DNA of 64,000 bases, from NCBI RefSeq assembly GCF_030418305.1, contig NZ_JAUHPX010000002.1, positions 248,001 through 312,000 of the forward strand, in the 5' to 3' direction. The position numbers and the translations under genes are program-made. Source of the DNA: Demequina lignilytica (GTDB lineage Bacteria > Actinomycetota > Actinomycetes > Actinomycetales > Demequinaceae). The notes under the pieces are model-generated. The model did no database searches. It saw nothing but the letters and a program-made list of their open reading frames with translations, and was not told the DNA's origin. Below are positions 34,494 to 44,283 of this stretch, piece by piece (position 1 is the first letter of the stretch; each line of letters begins with the position of its first letter).

Positions 34494-34978
34494 CACCGCA
34501 CCTCTTCCGTGTCCATCTCCTTGAGCGCGACGAGCACGGCATGCACCGCATCGTCGACCCGCTCCGTGACCTCCGGGGACATCCGACCGTGCTGGAACGT
34601 GGCCGCCTCGACGCCCACCACGGTGACCCGCCGCGGCAACGTGCCGAGCGTGCGCGACAGCTCGACTGCGCCCGCCAGCCCGAAGGCATGGCTGCCGCCG
34701 CGACCCGCGGCCGTGAAGGCGTGCGTGGGGAGCGGCTCCGCGCCGGCTCCCACCTCGCGCACGTGCACCGCGCCCGGCGGCCCGCCCGAGGCGACCGCGT
34801 CGATCACCACGGCGCCCGCGGCGCCGTCCCACGCCTGCGACAGCGACAGCGGGTCCTCCAGGGGGATCACCCGCACGTCGCACAGGCCGATCTCCCCGAT
34901 GCGCTCCGCGACCACGCCGCCCACGGCATCGTCCCCTCGATCGGGGCTGCCGAGGCCGATGACCAGCTTCTCGCTCAT
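34493..34978 (-). CDS. Hydrogenase maturation protease (HyaD/HycI type)
   Basis: A 161-residue endopeptidase. [27 protein letters not shown] contains the nickel-sensing GxGxxxxxDD motif (Asp in DRGDD), and VVIDAVASGGPPGAVHV contains the conserved Asp of D(A)V.GG.PG. These residues bind nickel in the precursor large subunit and trigger removal of its C-terminal tail. The substrate is almost surely the large subunit encoded just upstream, whose start-to-end overlap with this gene is 4 nt. Here TH..H residues occur in PLPTHAFTAAGRGGSHAFG. Confidence 0.88.
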   Translation of the reverse strand: MSEKLVIGLGSPDRGDDAVGGVVAERIGEIGLCDVRVIPLEDPLSLSQAWDGAAGAVVIDAVASGGPPGAVHVREVGAGAEPLPTHAFTAAGRGGSHAFGLAGAVELSRTLGTLPRRVTVVGVEAATFQHGRMSPEVTERVDDAVHAVLVALKEMDTEEVR

Positions 34979-36282
34979 GATCGCTTCACCCGCAGGTCCA
35001 GGAAGTGGGTGGCGCAGGAGATGCACGGGTCGTAGTTGCGGATGGCCTCCTCGCAGCGGTGGGTGAGCATGTGGTCGTCGAGGTCGGCCCACTGCTCGGC
35101 CGCGGTGCGGAGGTCCATCTCGATCGACGCCTGGTTCTGGGACGTCGGCGGCACGATCTGCGCGTCGGTGATGATCCCCTCCTCATCGATGACGTACCGG
35201 TGCCAGATCAGCCCGCGCGGGGCCTCGGAGGCGCCTATGCCCTCCCCCGCCCGGGGCGCGACCGGTACGGACGGCGGATAGCCGTCGCGCCAGTGGTCGA
35301 TGATGCTGAGCGCCTCCTCGAGCGCGTACACGAGCTCGACGGCCCGCACGATGATCGACTTGAACGGGTTCCGGCACGTCTCCCCGAGCCCGGCCTTGAG
35401 CGCCGCGTCCTGCGCGAGCGGGCTGAGCTGGTCGAAGTTCAGCGAGTAGCGCGCGAGCGGGCCCACGAAGTAGGTGCCGCCGTCGAAGCGCGCATGCAGC
35501 GCGTTCGAGTGCTCGACGTGGAACTCCTCGATGTGCTGGGCGAGCTCGGCGACCGGGAAGCGCACACCGGAGGTCGCGACCACCTCCGTGCCGCGCTCGA
35601 GCGGGTAGCCCTCGGGGTGGCGCAGCGCGACGTACGTGTACTCCTGCTCCATGGCGGGGAAGTCGAAGGTCGACACCAGCTCGACGGCCGCGAGCGCGTC
35701 CTCGAGGCTCTGCGCCAGGTCGGCGCGCAGCGTCAGCAGCTCGGCCACGGTGGGCATCCGGTAGAAGCCGCCGACCTTCACGTTGACCGGGTGGATCGCG
35801 CGGCCGCCGACCACCGTCATGAGGTCGTTGCCCGCCTTCTTGATGCGCAGGGCCATCGTGACCACGTCCGGCATGACCTTCGCCATGTCGAGCGCGCTCT
35901 CGTAGCCCAGGAAGTCGGGCGCATGCAGCATGAAGATGTGGAGGGCGTGGGACTCGATCCACTCGCCGCAGTACAGCAGGCGCCGCATCAGCTGGATCTC
36001 GGGCGTGGTGGTCACCCCGCAGATGGTCTCCATCGCCTCGGTGCTCGCCGACTGGTACGCCACCGGGCAGATCCCGCAGATGCGCGCCGTGATGTCCGGC
36101 GGCTCCGTGAACTTGCGGCCCCGCAGGAAACCCTCGTAGAACCGCGGCGGCTCGAAGATGTTGAGCTTGACGTCCACCACCTTCCCGTCGCGGTACTCGA
36201 TGTGCATGCCGCCCTCGCCCTCGACGCGAGCGAGCATGCCGACGTGCATCACCTGCCCGCCGTCCTTCAGCTGATGGGTCAT
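34975..36282 (-). CDS. hyhL: [NiFe]-hydrogenase large (alpha) subunit, group 3b type
   Basis: A 435-residue catalytic subunit. The N-terminal L1 motif [14 protein letters not shown] and C-terminal L2 motif DPCISCATH supply the four Cys ligands of the Ni-Fe centre. The protein ends FLDLRVKRS after the His of L2, a nine-residue tail of the kind removed by the maturation protease. Length and motifs fit the soluble bidirectional NAD(P)-linked group 3b (sulfhydrogenase-like) enzymes. The start at 36282 overlaps the small-subunit stop by 4 nt. It reduces or evolves H2 with electrons passed through the small, gamma and beta subunits. Confidence 0.93.
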
Positions 36283-37175
36283 CGCGCACCCGCCTCCACG
36301 GCCTCGGACGCCGCCCGGAACTCCGGCGCCCCCGCGTTGAAGGTGCGGTACACCCGGACGATGTCCCGGTCGTCCATCCCCAGCTCCGCCAGCTGCCGGG
36401 TGAGCGCCGCGGTGTTGGGCGAGTCCGACGGCCCGAAGCAGCCGTAGCAGCCGCGGCCGTAGCTGGGGCACAGCGCCCCGCAGCCGGCCTGCGTGACCGG
36501 GCCCAGGCAGGGCGTGCCGGTGGCGACGGGGACGCAGAGGTTGCCCTTGAGCTTGCACTCGACGCACACCGAGTAGGTCGGGATCCGCGGCTTGCGACCG
36601 TTGAGGTACGCGGCGAGCACCTCGACCAGCTGGCCCTTGTCCACCGGGCAGCCGCGCAGCTCGTAGTCGACGTCGACGTGGCTGGCGATCGGGGTCGAGG
36701 TGTCGAGCGTGGAGAGGTACTCCGGGTGGGCGTAGACGATGCTGCGGAACGCGTCCACGTCCGCGAAGTTGCGCAGCGCCTGGATGCCGCCGGCGGTCGC
36801 ACAGGCGCCGATGGTCACCAGCGTGGCGGACTGCTCGCGGATCTCGTGGATGCGGCGCACGTCCTCGGGCGTGGTGATGGACCCCTCGACCAGGCTCAGG
36901 TCGTAGGGCCCGGCGACGATCGCGCGGGTGGCCTCCGGGAAGTAGGCGATGGTGACGGAGTCGGCGATCTGGAGGAGCTCGTCCTCGCAGTTGAGCAGGC
37001 TCAGCTGGCAGCCGTCGCAGGAGGCGAACTTCCACACCGCGAGCTTGGGCTTGGGTTCCGCGGGCGTCGCCTCCGCGGGGGTCTCGGCGTGGGGATGCGT
37101 GTGCGGGTGGCCGTGCTCCGCCGTGTCCTCACCCGCGCTCGCGGGGGACGATGCAGCGATCGGGATGTCGCCCAT
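36279..37175 (-). CDS. hyhS: [NiFe]-hydrogenase small (delta) subunit with His-rich N-terminus
   Basis: A 298-residue Fe-S protein. [16 protein letters not shown] gives the proximal cluster motif CxxC, completed by [10 protein letters not shown] and [20 protein letters not shown] and [21 protein letters not shown] supply further cluster ligands. Before the fold lies an unusual 40-residue extension, [27 protein letters not shown], with five His residues. That extension could bind nickel or act as a store. Translation starts at ATG 37175 in the conserved cassette GGAGGCGTGTC-ATG-GGCGACATC. First gene of the eight-gene hydrogenase operon. Confidence 0.92.
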
Positions 37176-37221
37176 GACACGCCTCCTCTTGCGACGGTAT
37201 GCCGCGAGAGGTCAGACGAAA

Positions 37222-37234
37222 GGGACCTAGGTCC
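37222..37234 (-). promoter_or_regulatory. DosR/DevR-like operator upstream of the small-subunit operon
   Basis: GGGACCTAGGTCC contains a perfect 12-base palindrome. It begins 47 nt upstream of the ATG at 37175. A TACCGT box (TAnnnT) and the ribosome-binding GGAGGC follow. The sequence resembles the DosR consensus TTSGGGACTWWAGTCCCSAA. Confidence 0.65.
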
Positions 37235-37252
37235 GGGGACGAGCGGGAAAGA

Positions 37253-38197
37253 CTACTCCGCGGAAGCCTCGCGGGACTCGTTCGCCACGCCGTAGGGCAC
37301 GTGGACGCCCATGATGAAGCTGGTGGCGTCCTCGAGGTGGGTGGCCTGGTCGTCGAAGAAGATGTGCGGGCGCATCACCTCGAGCACCCGCGCCTTGGAC
37401 ACGCCGCCCAGGAAGAACGCGTCGTTGACCTCGACGCCCCAGTCGCGCAGGGAGCGCACGGCGCGCTCGTGGGACGGGGCCGCGCGGGCCGTGACCAGGG
37501 AGATGCGCAGGCGCTCCTCGTAGGCCGGGTCGGACTCCTTGCGGGCCCGCTCGAGCGCCTGGATGCGGTTGAGGTCCTTGAGCAGCGGCTGCAGCAGTCC
37601 CGGCTGGAGGGCGTGCTCGCGGCGGGTGACCTCGTGGTCGCGGAACGCCTCCATGCCGGCGGACTTGAAGATCCGCTCGGAGCCGTCGTCGGCGAGCACG
37701 CCGTCGAAGTCGAAGGCGATCCTGAGGCCGGGGTCGGCCGGGTCGTAGGCGGCGGCCGAGGGCAGGACGTGCCCCGCGGGGAAGCCGGCGGCGATCGCAT
37801 CGTCCACGTCCGCGCGGTTGCCCGAGAGGAACAGGGACATCTGCAGCGCGCCGATGTACTGGTAGGGCGCGACGCCCTGCGTGAAGACCGCGCGGGTCAT
37901 CGTCAGCCCGTGGGCCTCGATGGAGCGCATGACGCGCAGGCCGGTGCTCGGGTCGTTCTGCGACAGCACGATGATCTCGACCACCGGGTCGCCGTCGCGC
38001 AGATCGTTGAGCGCGAGCAGGCGCTGGACGAACGGGAAGGCGGCGCCGGGCTCGAGCACCTCGTCGATCCGCTCGTCCTGGTACCGGCGGTAGGCGTACT
38101 CGCCGTGCTCCCGGAAGTAGGCGTCGGACTCGGCCAGGTCGAATAGCGCGCTGGAGGCGACGCCCACCACGAGACGTTCGTCGAGTTCGTAACGCAT
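37253..38197 (-). CDS. Cytosolic 5'-nucleotidase (PF06189 family)
   Basis: A 314-residue protein resembling the NT5C1-like bacterial 5'-nucleotidases. Features are VGVASSALFDLAESDAYFREHGEYAYRRYQDERIDEVLEPG at the N-terminus, the HAD-type DFDGVLADDGSERIFKS, SLVTARAAPSHERAVRSL, and DAFFLGGVSKARVLEVMRPHIFFDDQATHLE with the DD acid pair. It should release nucleosides from IMP/AMP. Its own -10-like TAAGGT lies upstream. It sits between the gamma and small-subunit genes on the same strand but outside the boxed units; a role in the hydrogenase system is not evident. Confidence 0.83.
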   Translation of the reverse strand: MRYELDERLVVGVASSALFDLAESDAYFREHGEYAYRRYQDERIDEVLEPGAAFPFVQRLLALNDLRDGDPVVEIIVLSQNDPSTGLRVMRSIEAHGLTMTRAVFTQGVAPYQYIGALQMSLFLSGNRADVDDAIAAGFPAGHVLPSAAAYDPADPGLRIAFDFDGVLADDGSERIFKSAGMEAFRDHEVTRREHALQPGLLQPLLKDLNRIQALERARKESDPAYEERLRISLVTARAAPSHERAVRSLRDWGVEVNDAFFLGGVSKARVLEVMRPHIFFDDQATHLEDATSFIMGVHVPYGVANESREASAE

Positions 38198-38304
38198 GCG
38201 CGGGAGGGCTCCTCAGGGTCCGGGGTCGGACTATCGACCTTACCCGCCCCCACCGACGCCGGGCACCGGGTGCACCAACTGTTCACACGGCCGCAACGCG
38301 ACGG

Positions 38305-39162
38305 CTACAGCTGACGCACCGCCATGAGGGGCTCGAGCCGGTCGTAGCCCAGCACGGGCCCGTCGACGCAGATGAACAGCTCCCGCAGCTGGCAGTGACC
38401 GCACAGCCCCACGCCGCACTTCATCGACCGCTCCATGCTGAGCCGGATCCGGTCCTTCGGGATGCCGCGGGAGACCAGCGAGGTCGCGGCGGACCGCATC
38501 ATCACCTCGGGCCCGCACACGAAGGCGAAGGCGTTCCGCGGGTCGAAGCCCGCGCGCGTCACCAGCTCGGTGACGAACCCCACCTTGCCCTTGTACCCGT
38601 ACGGCGCGTTGTCGACCGTCATCTGGAGGTTGACATCGTTCAGGTCCGCCCAGCGGTGCATCTCGTGGCCGTAGAGGATGTCGTCGGGGGTGCGGGAGCC
38701 GTAGAGCAGCAGCACCTTGCCGTACCGCTCGCGGTGCGAGAGCACGTCGAGGATCGCGGGCCGCAGCGGCGCCAGGCCGATGCCGCCGGTGACGAACACG
38801 ACGTCCCGGCCCTCCGCATCGTCCACGTCCCAGGAGGTCCCGAAGGGGCCGCGGACGCCGACCTCGGTGCCGGGCGCGGCCTCGACCAGCGCGCGGGTGA
38901 CGGCGCCGACGTTCCTGATCGTGTGCTCGAGCGGGGCCGGGCTGCGGGGGTCGCCCGAGATCGAGATCGGCACCTCCCCCACCCCGAACGCGTGGAGCAT
39001 GGTGAACTGCCCCGCCCGGAACTCGAGCGGCGGGCCGTCGACCGGGTCGAGCAGCAGCGTGAAGGTGTCGCGCGTGTCCTGGCGGACGTGGGTGATGACG
39101 TAGCGCCGCGGGACCATCGGGTCCGTGGTGTGCGCGGGGGACGATGCGACGGAGGCGGTCAT
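38305..39162 (-). CDS. hyhG: Hydrogenase gamma subunit, FAD/NAD(P)-binding reductase
   Basis: A 285-residue ferredoxin-reductase-like protein (PF00970/PF00175 plus DHODB-type Fe-S end). FRAGQFTMLHAFGVGEVPISISG is the FAD-binding region, VVFVTGGIGLAPLRPAI the NAD(P)-binding loop, FAFVCGPEVMMRSA a CGP motif, and MKCGVGLCGHCQL with later FICVDGPVL supplies the [2Fe-2S] cysteines. It exchanges electrons between NAD(P)H and the hydrogenase. The start ATG overlaps the stop of a 21-residue leader ORF (ATGA). It lies apart from the small/large genes but under an identical regulatory cassette. Confidence 0.9.
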   Translation of the reverse strand: MTASVASSPAHTTDPMVPRRYVITHVRQDTRDTFTLLLDPVDGPPLEFRAGQFTMLHAFGVGEVPISISGDPRSPAPLEHTIRNVGAVTRALVEAAPGTEVGVRGPFGTSWDVDDAEGRDVVFVTGGIGLAPLRPAILDVLSHRERYGKVLLLYGSRTPDDILYGHEMHRWADLNDVNLQMTVDNAPYGYKGKVGFVTELVTRAGFDPRNAFAFVCGPEVMMRSAATSLVSRGIPKDRIRLSMERSMKCGVGLCGHCQLRELFICVDGPVLGYDRLEPLMAVRQL

Positions 39163-39224
39163 GGCGCACCTGCCGCGTGGGTGGGATCGCCACCGACACT
39201 GTTGACGCTGCGGATGTCGTCCAT
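39159..39224 (-). CDS. Leader peptide ORF translationally coupled to the gamma-subunit gene
   Basis: A 21-residue ORF (starting MDDIRSVNSV, ending AAGAP) with the same GGAGGCGTGTC-ATG-GACGACATCC start cassette as the small-subunit and beta genes, which encode MGDIP and MGDIR. Its stop TGA overlaps the gamma ATG in ATGA, so ribosomes reach gamma by reinitiation. It may be a relic of an ancestral N-terminus kept as the translation entry site; no function of the peptide itself is implied. Confidence 0.6.
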   Translation of the reverse strand: MDDIRSVNSVGGDPTHAAGAP

Positions 39225-39270
39225 GACACGCCTCCACCGTCGACCGTATGCCTCCCACGGGCGTGCGGGA

Positions 39271-39283
39271 GGGACCTTGGTCC
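39271..39283 (-). promoter_or_regulatory. DosR/DevR-like operator upstream of the gamma-subunit unit
   Basis: GGGACCTTGGTCC starts exactly 47 nt upstream of the leader ATG at 39224, followed by a TACGGT box on the minus strand. It differs from the other two boxes at only one or two central bases. It also lies between this unit and the divergent kinase genes and could act on both. Confidence 0.65.
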
Positions 39284-39404
39284 GGGGCTGGCGATGTGGG
39301 CGCTCACCTGGGTGGAGTCCCGGCGGGTAGAGCGACAACACGAGGGATAACACCTAGATTGACACCAGGCCAACGGGGAGGCGTCGGATGAGTCGAGGTG
39401 CGCG

Positions 39405-40601
39405 ATGACCACCGGCTCGACCCCTGTCCACCGCAGCGCCCTCGAGCGCCTGCAGCGGACCGTCTACTTCGCGACGGGGCTCGCGACCGCGCTGTTCGCG
39501 GCGCTGCTGTCGAGCGGGCCCAACGGGTTCGTCGCGCAGCTGGACCAGCTGGTGGTCCCGTTCGGCGCGTTCACCGTGCTGGTGGGCAATGCCGTGCCGG
39601 CGAGCCTCGCGATCCTGGCGTGGGTGCTGCCGATCCGCGCGCTGCGGATCCTGGTGACGGGGTCCGCGGCGGGGTTCGTCGCCTCGCAGCTCCTGTGGGT
39701 GCCGATGATGACGGCGGACACGCTGGCGGACGGCGCGGCGCCGTGGCTGCAGGGCTTCGGGGCGATCTACGCGACGCTGCTCGCGGTCGCGTGGGGGAAG
39801 CCGATCGTATGGGTGTTCCCGATCGTCCAGGGTCCGATGGTCGCGACCGTCGAGTATCTCTCCGCCGGAGGGAACCTCGAGCAGTCGCTGCTGGACGGCA
39901 TGGGCGCGCTGGTGACCAACCTGATCCTGATGGGCGCCGGCGCGGGAGCCGTCAACGCGGCCGCCCGGCAGGACCAGGAGGCGGAGCATGCACGCGCGGT
40001 GGCGGCCCACGAGGCGGCGCTGCGCACCGCGGAGCGCGAGCAGGCACGCATCAACGCGCTGGTGCACGACGACATCATGTCGGTGCTCCTCGCCGCCGTC
40101 CGCACCCCCGACTCCCCCGCCGTGGCGGAGCAGGCGCAGCAGGCGCTCGCCTCCGTCGCGACCATCCGGGAGAGGCGCACCCGCGCCTCGGCCTACGCGC
40201 CCGGCGAGGTGGTCGCGGTGCTGCGGACCACGGCGAACGAGGTCGGCGAGGACATCGTGGTGACGTCGGACGTGACCACGCTGGAGCATGTCCCGGCGCA
40301 GGTGGTCGCCGCCCTCGCGGAGGCGACGCGGGAGGCGCTGCGCAACAGCATGATCCACGCGGGCGGCCCCGACGTCCGACGCGAGCTCGCCGTGACGATC
40401 ACGGAGGGCGAGGTGCACGTCACCGTGCGCGACGACGGGCGCGGCTTCAACCCCCGCACCGTGCCGCCGCGCCGGCTCGGGCTCGCGGTCAGCATCCACG
40501 GGCGCATGAACGCGCTGTCGGGCGGCGGGGCCCGCGTGGTCTCCTCCCCCGGCGCCGGCGCGAACGTCGAGCTGTGGTGGCGCGCGGAGGACGTCCAGTG
40601 A
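39405..40601 (+). CDS. Sensor histidine-kinase-like membrane protein
   Basis: A 398-residue protein: six predicted membrane helices (residues about 20-190), a linker coiled coil (RQDQEAEHARAVAAHEAALRTAEREQ), then a phosphoacceptor-like helix LVHDDIMSVLLAAV with His near residue 221, and a HATPase with N-box EATREALRNSMIHAG and G1 box DDGRGFNP. It is similar to NarL-type (HisKA_3) kinases but without their usual HD(L/V) flanks. The six-base ORF MSRGAR (39388-39408), preceded by GGGGAGG, ends overlapping this ATG, again suggesting coupled translation. It diverges from the gamma subunit and shares its boxed promoter region. No response regulator follows. Confidence 0.75.
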   Translation: MTTGSTPVHRSALERLQRTVYFATGLATALFAALLSSGPNGFVAQLDQLVVPFGAFTVLVGNAVPASLAILAWVLPIRALRILVTGSAAGFVASQLLWVPMMTADTLADGAAPWLQGFGAIYATLLAVAWGKPIVWVFPIVQGPMVATVEYLSAGGNLEQSLLDGMGALVTNLILMGAGAGAVNAAARQDQEAEHARAVAAHEAALRTAEREQARINALVHDDIMSVLLAAVRTPDSPAVAEQAQQALASVATIRERRTRASAYAPGEVVAVLRTTANEVGEDIVVTSDVTTLEHVPAQVVAALAEATREALRNSMIHAGGPDVRRELAVTITEGEVHVTVRDDGRGFNPRTVPPRRLGLAVSIHGRMNALSGGGARVVSSPGAGANVELWWRAEDVQ

Positions 40602-41671
40602 GCGCGCCGGTCGACGTACAGGCGCCCGCCGCGGCGGGCGCCGTCTCCCCGGAGTCCGCACCCCGCGCGCGCGGGACGGACATCAGCCAGCTGGTCGGGC
40701 TGCACACCAATGGCGCGCTGATGATCCTCGGGGTCTACCTGATCTCGAACGTGGCGTTCGTGGCGACAACCGCGGACATCCTGGTCCACCCGTGGGCGTC
40801 GTGGCTGGCGGTGGCGCTGGTCTCCGTGGGAGGCGTGGTCGTGTCGCGGCCGCACCCGGACCCGTTCTCGAGCCGGCTGACGTACCTGGTCATGGCGATC
40901 GTCGTGGTGTCCACGGTGCTGGTCGCGTACGCGCTGCCGGACTCAGGCTCACTGGGGCGCGCGACCTGGCACCTCGGGGCGAACACGTGGCTGCTGTGGT
41001 TCCTGATCCTGCGGCGCCGCATCATCCGCGCGTGGATCACAGGCGTGCTGATGCTGCTGATCACCATGGCGTGGGCGGAGCTGTCGGGGCGCGGCCTGGT
41101 CTCAGGGCTCATGCTGGCGAGCCCGCAGGTGATGCTGCTGCTGATCGCGACGCTGTTCGGCGCGGGGCTGCGCCGGTCGACGACGCGCATCAACGCGCTG
41201 GCGCAGCGTTCGCTCGACGCGGCGGCGGCCGCCGGCGCCGTCGAGGCGGCGCGACGCATCCAGGACCAGCGTGCCGACGAGCTCGCCGAGGTCGCCGTGC
41301 CCGTCCTGACGGCGATCGCGACCGGAGCGGCGCTGACGGACGATGCGCGGGCCGAGATCATCCGCGTCGAGGCCCAGCTGCGGGACTCGGTGCGCGGCCG
41401 CGGGCTGGCGATGCCCGCGGTGGTCGCGGCGGCGACCCGCGCCCGCGAGCGCGGGGTCGAGGTGACGCTGCTGGACGACCGGAACGTGCCGCTGACCGGG
41501 GAGGAGTCGATGGCGGTGGTCTCCGCTGTCGTGTCCGCGCTGGACTCGGTGGTGAGCGGGAGCGTGACGGCGCGGCTGCTGCCCGTGGGGCGCGAGGAGC
41601 TCGCGACCATCGTGTCGCAATGCTCCGACGGGGAGTCGGAGCGCGCGGTTGTAGCGTCGGAAGGGGGCTGA
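40598..41671 (+). CDS. Histidine-kinase-like membrane protein without visible catalytic motifs
   Basis: A 357-residue protein beginning at GTG 40598, overlapping the preceding gene (GTGA). After a Pro/Ala-rich start come five or six membrane helices (residues about 40-185), then RRIQDQRADELAEVAVPVLTAIATG, which has the position of a dimerisation helix but no H-box. The ATPase part is short and lacks N, G1 and G2 boxes (LLDDRNVPLTGEESMAVVSAVVSALDSVVSGS). It resembles the preceding kinase in plan and is best read as a pseudokinase partner. Function is inferred only from position. Confidence 0.6.
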   Translation: MSAPVDVQAPAAAGAVSPESAPRARGTDISQLVGLHTNGALMILGVYLISNVAFVATTADILVHPWASWLAVALVSVGGVVVSRPHPDPFSSRLTYLVMAIVVVSTVLVAYALPDSGSLGRATWHLGANTWLLWFLILRRRIIRAWITGVLMLLITMAWAELSGRGLVSGLMLASPQVMLLLIATLFGAGLRRSTTRINALAQRSLDAAAAAGAVEAARRIQDQRADELAEVAVPVLTAIATGAALTDDARAEIIRVEAQLRDSVRGRGLAMPAVVAAATRARERGVEVTLLDDRNVPLTGEESMAVVSAVVSALDSVVSGSVTARLLPVGREELATIVSQCSDGESERAVVASEGG

Positions 41672-41677
41672 AGGGTC

Positions 41678-42298
41678 ATGGGACGCCTCAGCATCGACCT
41701 GTTCTGCTCGCTCGACGGGGTCGCGCAGGCGCCCGGCGCGCCCGACGAGGACCCGTCGGGCGGGTTCCCGTTCGGCGGCTGGCAGGCGCCGCTGGGCGAC
41801 GCGATGGTCGGCGAGAGTGTGATGGCGGGCATCGAGTCGCTGGACGCCCTGCTGCTCGGGCGGGTCACCTATGACATCTGGCGGGCGTACTGGCCGTTCC
41901 ACGAGTCGGGACCGGCGGGGGCGATCGGGCGGAAGTTCGGCGACGTGCCCAAGTACGTGGCGAGCCGGGGCGATGTGGATCTGTCGTGGCGGGGGTCGTC
42001 GCGGGTCGGGGCGGATATGGTCGCCGAGGTGCGTGAACTGCGCGAGCGGCACGCGGACCTGCACGTGATCGGCAGCATCGACCTGGTGCAGACGCTGCTG
42101 GCGCACGACCTGTTCGATGTCCTGACCCTGTGGGTCTACCCGGTGGTGCTCGGGCAGGGCAAGAAGGTGTTCCCCGACGGCGCGACACCCGCGACGCTCG
42201 CACTGCTGGAGCCGCCCGTCATGGGGCCTAGCGGAGCGGTGCAGCTGCGCTATGGGCCCACCGGGCGTGGTGTCGCAACCGGGACGATGGAGGGGTAG
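41678..42298 (+). CDS. Dihydrofolate reductase family protein (RibD C-terminal fold)
   Basis: A 206-residue protein of the RibD-C/DHFR-like group (PF01872). Visible: GRLSIDLFCSLDGVAQAPG at the N-terminus, LDALLLGRVTYDIWRAYWPFH, KYVASRG...LSWRGSSRV, LHVIGSIDLVQTLLAHDLFDVLTLWVYPVVLGQGKKVFPDG. Such stand-alone proteins reduce unknown substrates with NADPH; they are not true folate enzymes. GAAGGGGG lies before ATG 41678, 6 bases after the pseudokinase stop, so it may share that mRNA. No direct link to the hydrogenase is visible. Confidence 0.82.
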   Translation: MGRLSIDLFCSLDGVAQAPGAPDEDPSGGFPFGGWQAPLGDAMVGESVMAGIESLDALLLGRVTYDIWRAYWPFHESGPAGAIGRKFGDVPKYVASRGDVDLSWRGSSRVGADMVAEVRELRERHADLHVIGSIDLVQTLLAHDLFDVLTLWVYPVVLGQGKKVFPDGATPATLALLEPPVMGPSGAVQLRYGPTGRGVATGTMEG

Positions 42299-42325
42299 CG
42301 GACGATGCGCCGGGCGCCGCCGCGC

Positions 42326-42799
42326 TCAGCCCACCTCACCGAAGGGGTACCGCACCACGGTGAACGGCCAGGCACGGGCCAGCCACTCGGGCACGAACGC
42401 GTCGACCGCCGCACCGAGGCCCGCGGGCGCGTCGGCGACCACCCACCAGCTGACGTCGGCCACGGGGCCCGCCGCCGCATTGTCCCCCTCCTCGGCGGGA
42501 TCGATGTAGACGCACCCGAGGAGGCGGTCCTCGGCGGTGGGGAGGATCGCGTAGTTGAAGGACTCGTGGGCGACCATCTCGCGCGCGTGGCGGGCGAGGT
42601 CGTCGCGGTCGGCCTCGGCGCTCATGTCGGCGGGAGGCCAGCCCCACGCGTCGCCGTACTTGGCCCAAAGCATCGGCTGGTTGCCCATGACGGCGGGCAT
42701 GTCGATCGCGAGGTCGTCGGGGCTGATGGGGCGCAGGTGGATGCCGTCCGTGAGGTCGACGCGGAGTGGGTGAACGAACTCAGCGGGCAGCCAGATCAT
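42326..42799 (-). CDS. GNAT-family N-acetyltransferase
   Basis: A 157-residue protein with a GNAT-like sheet: [71 protein letters not shown], and [14 protein letters not shown]. The acetyl-CoA-binding Q/RxxGxG loop is degenerate. It is close to small actinobacterial GNAT proteins. It begins at ATG 42799, 93 bases downstream of the hydrogenase beta stop on the same strand, and could be read through from that unit. Substrate unknown. Confidence 0.7.
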
Positions 42800-42892
42800 G
42801 GCTCATTGTCGGCTCCCGCTATGGTGCGCGGCCCGGTACTTGAGGCGTGTCGCGCGGCGCGGGCGCTGTCCTCGCTCCACCACCGCCCGCGC

Positions 42893-44044
42893 CTATGCGG
42901 ACGATCCGGCGCTCGCCATGCGACCGAGCGCGGCGGCCTCCTCGGTGATGTCGATGCCGACGGGGCACCAGGCGATGCATCGTCCACAGCCCACGCAGCC
43001 GAGCATGCCGAACTGGTCCTCCCAGCTGGAGAGCTTGTGGGTGATCCACTGGCGGTAGCGGGCCTTCACGTCGGCGCGGAGGGGGCCGCCGTGGATGTAG
43101 CTGAAGTTCTCGGAGAAGCAGGAGTCCCAGACGCGGTGGCGTTCGGCGTTGTCGCCGGCGAGGTCGCTGCTGTCCTCGATGGTGGTGCAGAAGCACGTGG
43201 GGCACACGAGCGTGCAGTTGGTGCAGGCGAGGCACCTGCTCGCCACGTCATCCCAGCGGGGTGACTCGGCGGAGGCACGGAGGACGTCGTGGATGGTCGA
43301 GGTGTCGATGCTGCGGGTCTGCCGCGCGGCGGCGGCGTCGGTGATGGCGACGGCCTCGTCGTGGTCGTGCTCGGTGCCGGGGGTGGCGCCGGCGGCGTCG
43401 GCAACCTCGCGGCCGGCGTCGGTGCCGATCTCGACGATGAAGTGGTGCTCGCCGTCGTGCAGCGACTCGGTCAGGAGCAGGTCGTAGGCGGGCTGCTGGG
43501 TGTCGGGGTCGGTGGCGGCGGGGCGCGGGCCGGTGCCCATGGAGGCGCAGAAGCAGGTGGCGGCGGGGTCGGCGCAGGCGACCGCGACCACGAACGTGCC
43601 GGCGCGGCGGGCCGCGTAGTGGGCGTCGACGTACTGGCGGCTGGCGAGGACGCGGTCCTGGATCTCGGTGGCGCGGAGGTCGCAGCTCCGGACGCCGACG
43701 AGGGCGACGGGCGCGGCGGCGTCGGCGCCGTGCTCGACGGAGAAGTGGTCGTGCTCGCGGCGGCCGTGCCAGATCACCTCGTCCGCGGGGAAGAACACGG
43801 GCTTGGTGGACTGGGCGGGGGCGGCGAAGCCGAAGTAGGCGTCGTCGTCGCGCTTCCGCAGCCGGTACTCCCCCGGTTCCTGGCTGTCGCCGACGCCGCG
43901 TGGCAGGTCGTCGGCCGTGAAGAGGTCACCGGTGACGATCGCGTCGCCCCGGACGGTGGGCCCCATCACGCGATACCCGCGGCGCCGCAGCTCCGCGATG
44001 AGCGCGTCGAGGCCTTGGATGTCGAGAATTCGGATGTCGCCCAT
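42893..44044 (-). CDS. hyhB: Hydrogenase beta subunit, 4Fe-4S dicluster protein
   Basis: A 383-residue iron-sulfur protein of the group 3b beta (HydB-like) type. Clusters are bound by [16 protein letters not shown] and by [18 protein letters not shown] near the C-terminus; earlier [14 protein letters not shown] gives additional Cys. The start [37 protein letters not shown] is typical. It carries electrons between the gamma flavin subunit and the small subunit. Unlike the usual beta-gamma-small-large operon it is separated from gamma by about 3.7 kb containing four unrelated genes on the other strand and a GNAT gene. Its promoter cassette is the third copy. Confidence 0.9.
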
Positions 44045-44283
44045 GACATGCCTCCAGGTTCGAGGCTAGGCGTGTCAGCGGGGGGCGCGAGGGACTTTGG
44101 TCCCCGGCAGGGACGATGCGGGTCGCAGCGCGGGCCCTTGGCATGCCTAGCGCGAGTAGGCACGTCGGCGTCCAGCAGCCGCCAATCTCGTTGTGCACGG
44201 ACTGGCACCAGCGGCGACCAGACGGCGGGTCCCCGGCGCGGGGCGCTCCGTGTATGTCCTCCACAACCAATCCACCAGCACAA
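44045..44283. other. Intergenic region at the backbone/defence-island junction
   Basis: From the beta start to the ATPase stop: the hydrogenase box (44091-44105), the 21-base intergenic repeat with the 10-mer (44100-44120), then about 160 bases of lower GC with no tRNA, integrase remnant or direct repeat that I can see. It marks a clear composition change from about 74% to about 57% GC. Confidence 0.5.
44091..44105 (-). promoter_or_regulatory. DosR/DevR-like operator upstream of the beta subunit
   Basis: GGGACTTTGGTCCCC begins exactly 47 nt upstream of the beta ATG at 44044. It is the copy closest to the DosR consensus half-sites (GGGACT and GTCCC). A TAGCCT box follows on the minus strand before GGAGGCATGTC-ATG. 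Confidence 0.7.

Follow-up and report, generated by a model that had tools for sequence, protein, structure and literature searches.

The hydrogenase genes of the actinobacterium Demequina lignilytica lie in separate pieces, and copies of one DosR-type promoter-and-start cassette most probably keep these pieces of a broken operon within a single regulon; judging from the sequence, a fall in oxygen can probably still induce the separated pieces jointly. The locus was studied in a stretch of 64,000 nucleotides (contig NZ_JAUHPX010000002.1, positions 248,001 to 312,000, assembly GCF_030418305.1), hereafter the window. DosR control of such a hydrogenase is already known from Mycobacterium smegmatis; the copying of the cassette and the partners of the hydrogenase in the regulon are apparently new, as we found no report of them.

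On the minus strand, the locus runs from the beta subunit gene through four other genes, the gamma subunit gene with its 21-codon leader and a 5′-nucleotidase gene to the genes for the small and large subunits. Three DosR-like boxes with a GGAC-N4-GTCC core precede the starts of beta, of the gamma leader and of the small subunit. The promoter elements, hydrogenase genes and leader open reading frame (ORF) are as follows:

44091..44104 (core 44092-44103, GGACCAAAGTCC on the coding strand), minus strand: DosR-like box of the beta promoter, an exact match 47 nt from the ATG
44063..44068, minus strand: -10-like element TAGCCT of the beta promoter, by sequence, 23 nt after GTCC
42893..44044, minus strand: hydrogenase/sulfhydrogenase beta subunit, an ORF of 383 aa starting MGDIRILD; Fer4_22, with NCBIfam sulfhydrogenase beta models below cut-offs
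39271..39284 (core 39272-39283), minus strand: DosR-like box of the gamma/leader promoter, an exact match with 47-nt spacing
39243..39248, minus strand: -10-like element TACGGT of the gamma promoter, by sequence
39159..39224, minus strand: 21-codon leader ORF MDDIRSVNSVGGDPTHAAGAP, read from the sequence, with its TGA overlapping the gamma ATG (ATGA); putative remnant of a copied beta 5′ end
38305..39162, minus strand: hydrogenase gamma subunit (FAD/NAD-binding); NAD_binding_1 and DHODB_Fe-S_bind, with cytochrome-c3 hydrogenase gamma below cut-off
37222..37235 (core 37223-37234), minus strand: DosR-like box of the small-subunit promoter, an exact match with 47-nt spacing
37194..37199, minus strand: -10-like element TACCGT of the small-subunit promoter, by sequence
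36279..37175, minus strand: hydrogenase small (delta) subunit, with an N-terminal extension that opens with MGDIP and is in frame with the putatively copied start; Oxidored_q6, with sulfhydrogenase delta below cut-off
34975..36282, minus strand: hydrogenase large (alpha) subunit; sulfhydrogenase alpha, below cut-off

Among NCBIfam models, those for sulfhydrogenase ranked first for beta, delta and alpha and fourth for gamma, without reaching the curated cut-offs in any case. The enzyme may belong to ‘group 3b’, a label that comes from a preliminary description of this DNA.

Exact matches to GGGACYTWGGTCC begin at 44091, 39271 and 37222 and nowhere else in the window, and their palindromic cores read GGACCAAAGTCC, GGACCAAGGTCC and GGACCTAGGTCC on the coding (minus) strand. 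The core lies exactly 47 nt from the ATG at all three hydrogenase starts, as the preliminary description had reported, and the TAnnnT box that it assigned to each unit is also there, with TAGCCT, TACGGT or TACCGT beginning 23 nt past GTCC. Downstream follows a start block, GGAGGC(A/G)TGTC-ATG-G(G/A)C-GAC-ATC-C, in which GGAGG forms the ribosome-binding site; this block had been recognised correctly, with a slight imprecision in its protein reading of (G/D)-D-I after the start, in that the small subunit begins with M-G-D-I-P. Should TAnnnT be the -10 element, the palindrome of 14 nt would extend from about -48 to -35, with its centre near -41.5 relative to the predicted start points, which is the site where an activator overlapping the -35 would be expected. 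The three exact cores thus have the form looked for in a DosR/DevR-type regulon, namely a palindromic GGGAC-N4-GTCCC-type operator predicted to overlap the -35; a like placement, with the operator overlapping the -35, is described for DevR promoters of Mycobacterium tuberculosis in passages of PMC3029386.

Read loosely, the box pattern alone is a weak signal: with two mismatches allowed, GGGACYTWGGTCC has 10 matches in the window against 4.9 expected, and 4 of 100 shuffles reach 10. For GGACYWWRGTCC, three exact matches and one with a single mismatch were observed, whereas first-order simulation gave 0.000 exact and 0.88 exact-or-one-mismatch matches per 64 kb. A chance origin of the three boxes was rejected from these window counts, the simulation and the spacing shared across the units. 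The genome-wide search for the box that the preliminary description had suggested was less telling, yielding 10 sites for GGACYWWRGTCC in the whole 2.9-Mb genome against five for a reversed control; the box alone is therefore not specific, and it is the box together with its spacing that is distinctive. Across 44 Demequina genomes, exact boxes were modestly enriched (259 against 153 control matches), and box count alone was judged weak as a regulon marker. By eye, no matching -10 geometry was seen at the other exact boxes in the D. lignilytica genome (narK-like C1:589728, C1:618947, C2:52978, icd C14:102354 and C16:111939).

Comparison across the genus drew on the hydrogenase loci of D. lignilytica and of 22 further Demequina genomes, those with a small-subunit match when 119 genomes were searched, with named records added for two beta promoters; separated and contiguous genes were counted from measured distances and the box lists for each locus. 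A box with at most one mismatch precedes 20 of the 23 beta starts, 18 of them at 47 nt and two at 46 nt, and at the remaining three, all of one clade, the sites are degenerate (GGACATTCGTCC and GGACGTACGTCC at 47 nt, GGACCTTCGGCC at 48 nt). Fourteen genomes have gamma separated from beta and five have small separated from gamma; a box stands at 47 nt before the separated gene in 19/19 cases, compared with 0/27 for contiguous gamma (9) and small (18) starts (Fisher p 2.4e-13 over 23 genomes, kinship ignored). Intact operons carry a single box, before beta. In all 37 units with 47-nt spacing, the first two bases (TA) of the -10-like element are identical.

Likeness among the units extends into coding sequence. 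Between genomes, identity is 80-94% in the block from the -10 to codon 5 and 37-69% in the stretch from the box to the -10 (30% expected by composition). Codons 6-17 of beta and of gamma were compared within each genome, with 26,293 in-frame windows as the reference; their likeness reaches p<0.005 in 7/14 genomes and is best at 25/36 nt (p 0.00004). In D. iriomotensis (G002), D. gelatinilytica (G020) and G011, gamma reads MDDIRIPEP-GLDARVA and beta MDDIRIL-P-GLDALIA, with 22-25/36 nt matching over codons 6-17 (p 0.0004 or less). Four relatives with the nucleotidase insertion (G031, G006, G023 and G038) have a 16-codon leader, M(D/V)DIR(F/I)LA..., before small that stops where small starts. Outside beta, codons 3-4 (DI) are retained in 16/19 copies. 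The preliminary description had taken identical box spacing and sequence to indicate that one regulator binds all three sites; copying of one promoter with the first beta codons explains them instead, and they are for that reason not independent evidence of a single regulator. As a whole, the earlier interpretation is partly supported.

Mapped on a tree of gamma, small and large, the arrangements suggest that the operon split in four places and was re-joined once, in D. mangrovi; support is weak at some nodes. In a tree of the promoter units, most gamma units group together and are more alike than each is to its own beta unit, a pattern that also fits one old copying with later losses or re-joining. 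Decay is seen in D. sediminis, where no small subunit was found in the genome and neither gamma nor large at the locus, beta and two kinases remaining. The gamma start of this species is fused in frame to a stretch resembling, by eye, the maturation protease of the window. One base of its gamma box is changed and both promoters carry an altered TA in the -10, the ribosome-binding site and start being kept; in this one case, the decay agrees with what would be expected if selection for the hydrogenase had maintained box and -10. Just upstream of the D. sediminis beta promoter lies a pair of transposase-like genes (IS3-like by eye; L153 3705-4888).

A search for a DosR/DevR-like LuxR regulator, likewise suggested at the outset, led to a candidate and a DosT/DevS-like kinase beside cyd genes. 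The best PDB match of this NarL-family regulator, encoded in the D. lignilytica genome at L013:7922-8560 and made up of Response_reg and GerE domains, is 3c3w, the DevR/DosR protein of M. tuberculosis (E 7.8e-41). Nine GerE-domain matches occur in the genome, and among the eight LuxR-type proteins read from these the DevR-like protein keeps the AEKTVKN recognition segment of DosR, which is absent from the other seven; the DNA-contact residues of DosR are K179, K182 and N183. The kinase gene beside the regulator gene is convergent with it and encodes two GAF stretches, HisKA_3 and HATPase_c_2. Its first GAF has its best PDB matches in the GAF domains of DosT/DevS (E 1.6e-26 for DosT), and the histidine of HPPM, presumably the heme ligand there, is aligned; by sequence, DevR and DevS/DosT of M. 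tuberculosis are the nearest solved relatives of the Demequina regulator and GAF sensor. Upstream of the kinase lie cydA (below model cut-offs), a cydB-like gene and ABC-type genes that, from their sequence, we take as cydDC. DevR-like orthologs near full length and of at least 74% identity are present in 41/43 other Demequina genomes; in G041 (50% complete), the ortholog lies in two frames.

Similar boxes precede genes outside the hydrogenase locus. The cydA gene is preceded by a box with no more than one mismatch in the D. lignilytica genome (one mismatch) and in 20/20 relatives, chosen out of 43, with 11 exact; in the loci counted by eye, TAnnnT follows 25-26 nt past the cydA box. The D. 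lignilytica genome also encodes sulfide:quinone reductase (SQR; NF049943 above cut-off), followed by a TusE/DsrC gene (L020 4937-6817), and a box with at most one mismatch lies 81-89 nt before the SQR start in 11/11 loci read, its own included. This type III SQR occurs at 69% identity or more in 12/44 Demequina genomes, one of them partial. At sucC (L011 14931), the box lies 87-89 nt before the start and a conserved TAG-element about 21 nt after it.

We propose that the ancestral Demequina operon probably ran beta-gamma-small-large with one such promoter, before beta, and that the cassette would join an operator of the DosR/DevR type to a -10 element, the ribosome-binding site and the opening codons of beta. 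Other genes would then have come to lie on one or the other side of gamma, towards beta or towards small, with a copy of the beta 5′ end standing before the cut-off gene; we infer both the direction and the timing of this copying. The copy would have turned either into an N-terminal extension in frame with that gene or into a short leader ORF that stops where the next start codon lies. The box overlapping the -35 is most likely bound by the DevR-like response regulator whose gene neighbours cydABDC and the two-GAF kinase, and this regulator would activate all pieces jointly with cytochrome bd oxidase and, in some species, SQR, when oxygen or respiration falls.

Several observations weigh against this proposal. 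The metagenome assembly G030 keeps its beta and gamma boxes but yielded no DevR ortholog, and at the place expected for the DevS-like kinase (L224) it has a 329-aa GAF protein that lacks the kinase part. A search of bases 1-9800 of L013 with up to two mismatches gave only the cydA box and GGTCCTAGGACC, which lies at L013 8557-8568, 17 nt before the devR ATG, and has two mismatches with its half-sites swapped; no usual box was found before devR. In this respect, and in the convergence of the kinase and regulator genes, Demequina differs from the M. tuberculosis DevR system. The sucC box is present in only 13/30 loci, and the spacing from box to -10 varies with the target by eye (21 nt at sucC, 23 at the hydrogenase, 24 at SQR and 25-26 at cydA). 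The beta box of D. sediminis is itself intact. M-x-D-I-R is lost or altered in 4/19 copies. Beyond codon 5, the leaders before small in the four relatives have no significant match to beta (p 0.28-0.62), so the copying case for small rests on the shared block from box to codon 5; likeness past codon 5 is likewise not significant in D. lignilytica itself (p 0.07 for gamma, 0.90 for small), whose copying claim therefore rests on that block and on the relatives. Both one copying and several fit the trees.

The genes that now stand between the hydrogenase pieces are:

37253..38197, minus strand: 5′-nucleotidase gene (PF06189) between gamma and small, with the same insertion in four relatives
39405..41671, plus strand: HK1 (39405-40601; HATPase, MacS-like below cut-off) and HK2 (40598-41671; without Pfam/NCBIfam match in family searches), between beta and gamma
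41678-42298, plus strand: RibD_C-domain reductase, by domain match, between beta and gamma
42326-42799, minus strand: acetyltransferase-like gene, below Pfam cut-off, between beta and gamma

Genes between beta and gamma vary by species (L050-L070), as at an insertion hot spot, and the HK1/HK2 pair adjoins beta in this and eight other Demequina genomes.

We consider it unlikely that the box is bound by another NarL-family regulator, or that HK1/HK2 act via some other partner, in place of the cyd-linked DevR-like protein. Such an arrangement would accord with the number of GerE-domain matches in the genome, with the boxes of G030, and with HK1/HK2 adjoining beta in nine genomes with no response regulator seen beside them within the window; the two kinases could feed the same regulator or another. 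It fits poorly with the restriction of AEKTVKN to the DevR-like protein among those read, with the encoding of that protein beside cyd genes whose promoter carries the same kind of box, and with its near full-length retention across the genus.

Independent convergence, in which one regulator requires a given geometry and the same box and spacing were acquired separately, seems very improbable. As convergence would allow, copies within a genome share little between box and -10 (19-71% identity), and unrelated starts follow the boxes of cydA and SQR. The likeness among hydrogenase units, however, continues past the ribosome-binding site to the first codons, and to beta codon 17 in 7/14 gamma copies; since a DNA-binding regulator needs no shared coding sequence, this largely contradicts convergence. 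Scarcely credible is a role in translation, with selection on a weak RNA hairpin holding AUG in its loop and the upstream box incidental: a stem of the GUGUC-AUGGAC-GACAU type is predicted in 29/39 units and the DI codons persist in most copies, but the hairpin is kept only as a weak rival because 134/1000 plain shuffles of the consensus fold as well, while the start region is no better conserved than box and -10, and such a box recurs at cydA and SQR without the shared start.

The preferred reading, a copied DosR-type cassette, has a close counterpart in M. smegmatis, where the beta, gamma, delta and alpha genes of the hydrogenase Hyh (MSMEG_3931-3927) belong to the dos regulon and are raised at low oxygen, according to passages of PMC2799521, PMC8125079 and PMC13098282. 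The preliminary description had rightly named this control by DosR, which is stated in parts of PMC8125079 and PMC13098282, and a table in PMC2799521 gives the increase of Hyh at 2.5% and 0.6% oxygen saturation. M. smegmatis has one cluster, msmeg_3931-3927 (as given in part of PMC2799521), whereas Demequina has a split operon with a copied promoter for each piece; cytochrome bd is named apart from the dos regulon in a passage of PMC8125079, whereas in Demequina cydA is boxed and the regulator gene lies near cyd. The OsdR-OsdK system of Streptomyces coelicolor includes a DevR ortholog with a palindromic 16-nt operator, AGGGCCGATCGGCCCT (passages of PMC5069765), the letters of which differ from GGGACC-AA-GGTCCC; a text search of that paper gave neither cydA nor hydrogenase. 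Split operons with genes likewise separated by other genes are known in bacteria, for example trp operons (PMC2395257). No report of promoter-plus-start copies at operon splits appeared among the matches listed, by title, in one open-access library. For a DosR-type regulon with these partners in Demequina, no report was found in a literature search that never joined Demequina with DosR, and the matches listed for Demequina with hydrogenase were two papers with one mention each.

If the preferred reading is true, promoter copying would be a recurrent repair route for broken operons, readable step by step in one genus, where co-regulation after operon breakage is usually argued in general terms. 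Within Demequina, one operon occurs intact, split once, split twice, decayed and possibly re-joined, and in the sampled operons the promoter copy is present wherever a gene is cut off and nowhere else. The boxes also point to DosR-type control of the hydrogenase together with cytochrome bd and sulfide oxidation. Much more tentatively, Demequina may have reorganised a DosR-type regulon so that it centres on low oxygen and sulfide (cytochrome bd, SQR with TusE/DsrC and a sulfhydrogenase-type hydrogenase), with a self-contained cassette copied at each insertion and its first five codons kept for translation start, a possibility that we regard as rather doubtful.

Upstream of the beta promoter, the window also holds a DISARM-type anti-phage island (46153-61239, plus strand), with matches in a row to a cytosine methylase (DruM/DrmMII-like), DrmD, DrmMI, DrmA, DrmB and DrmC.

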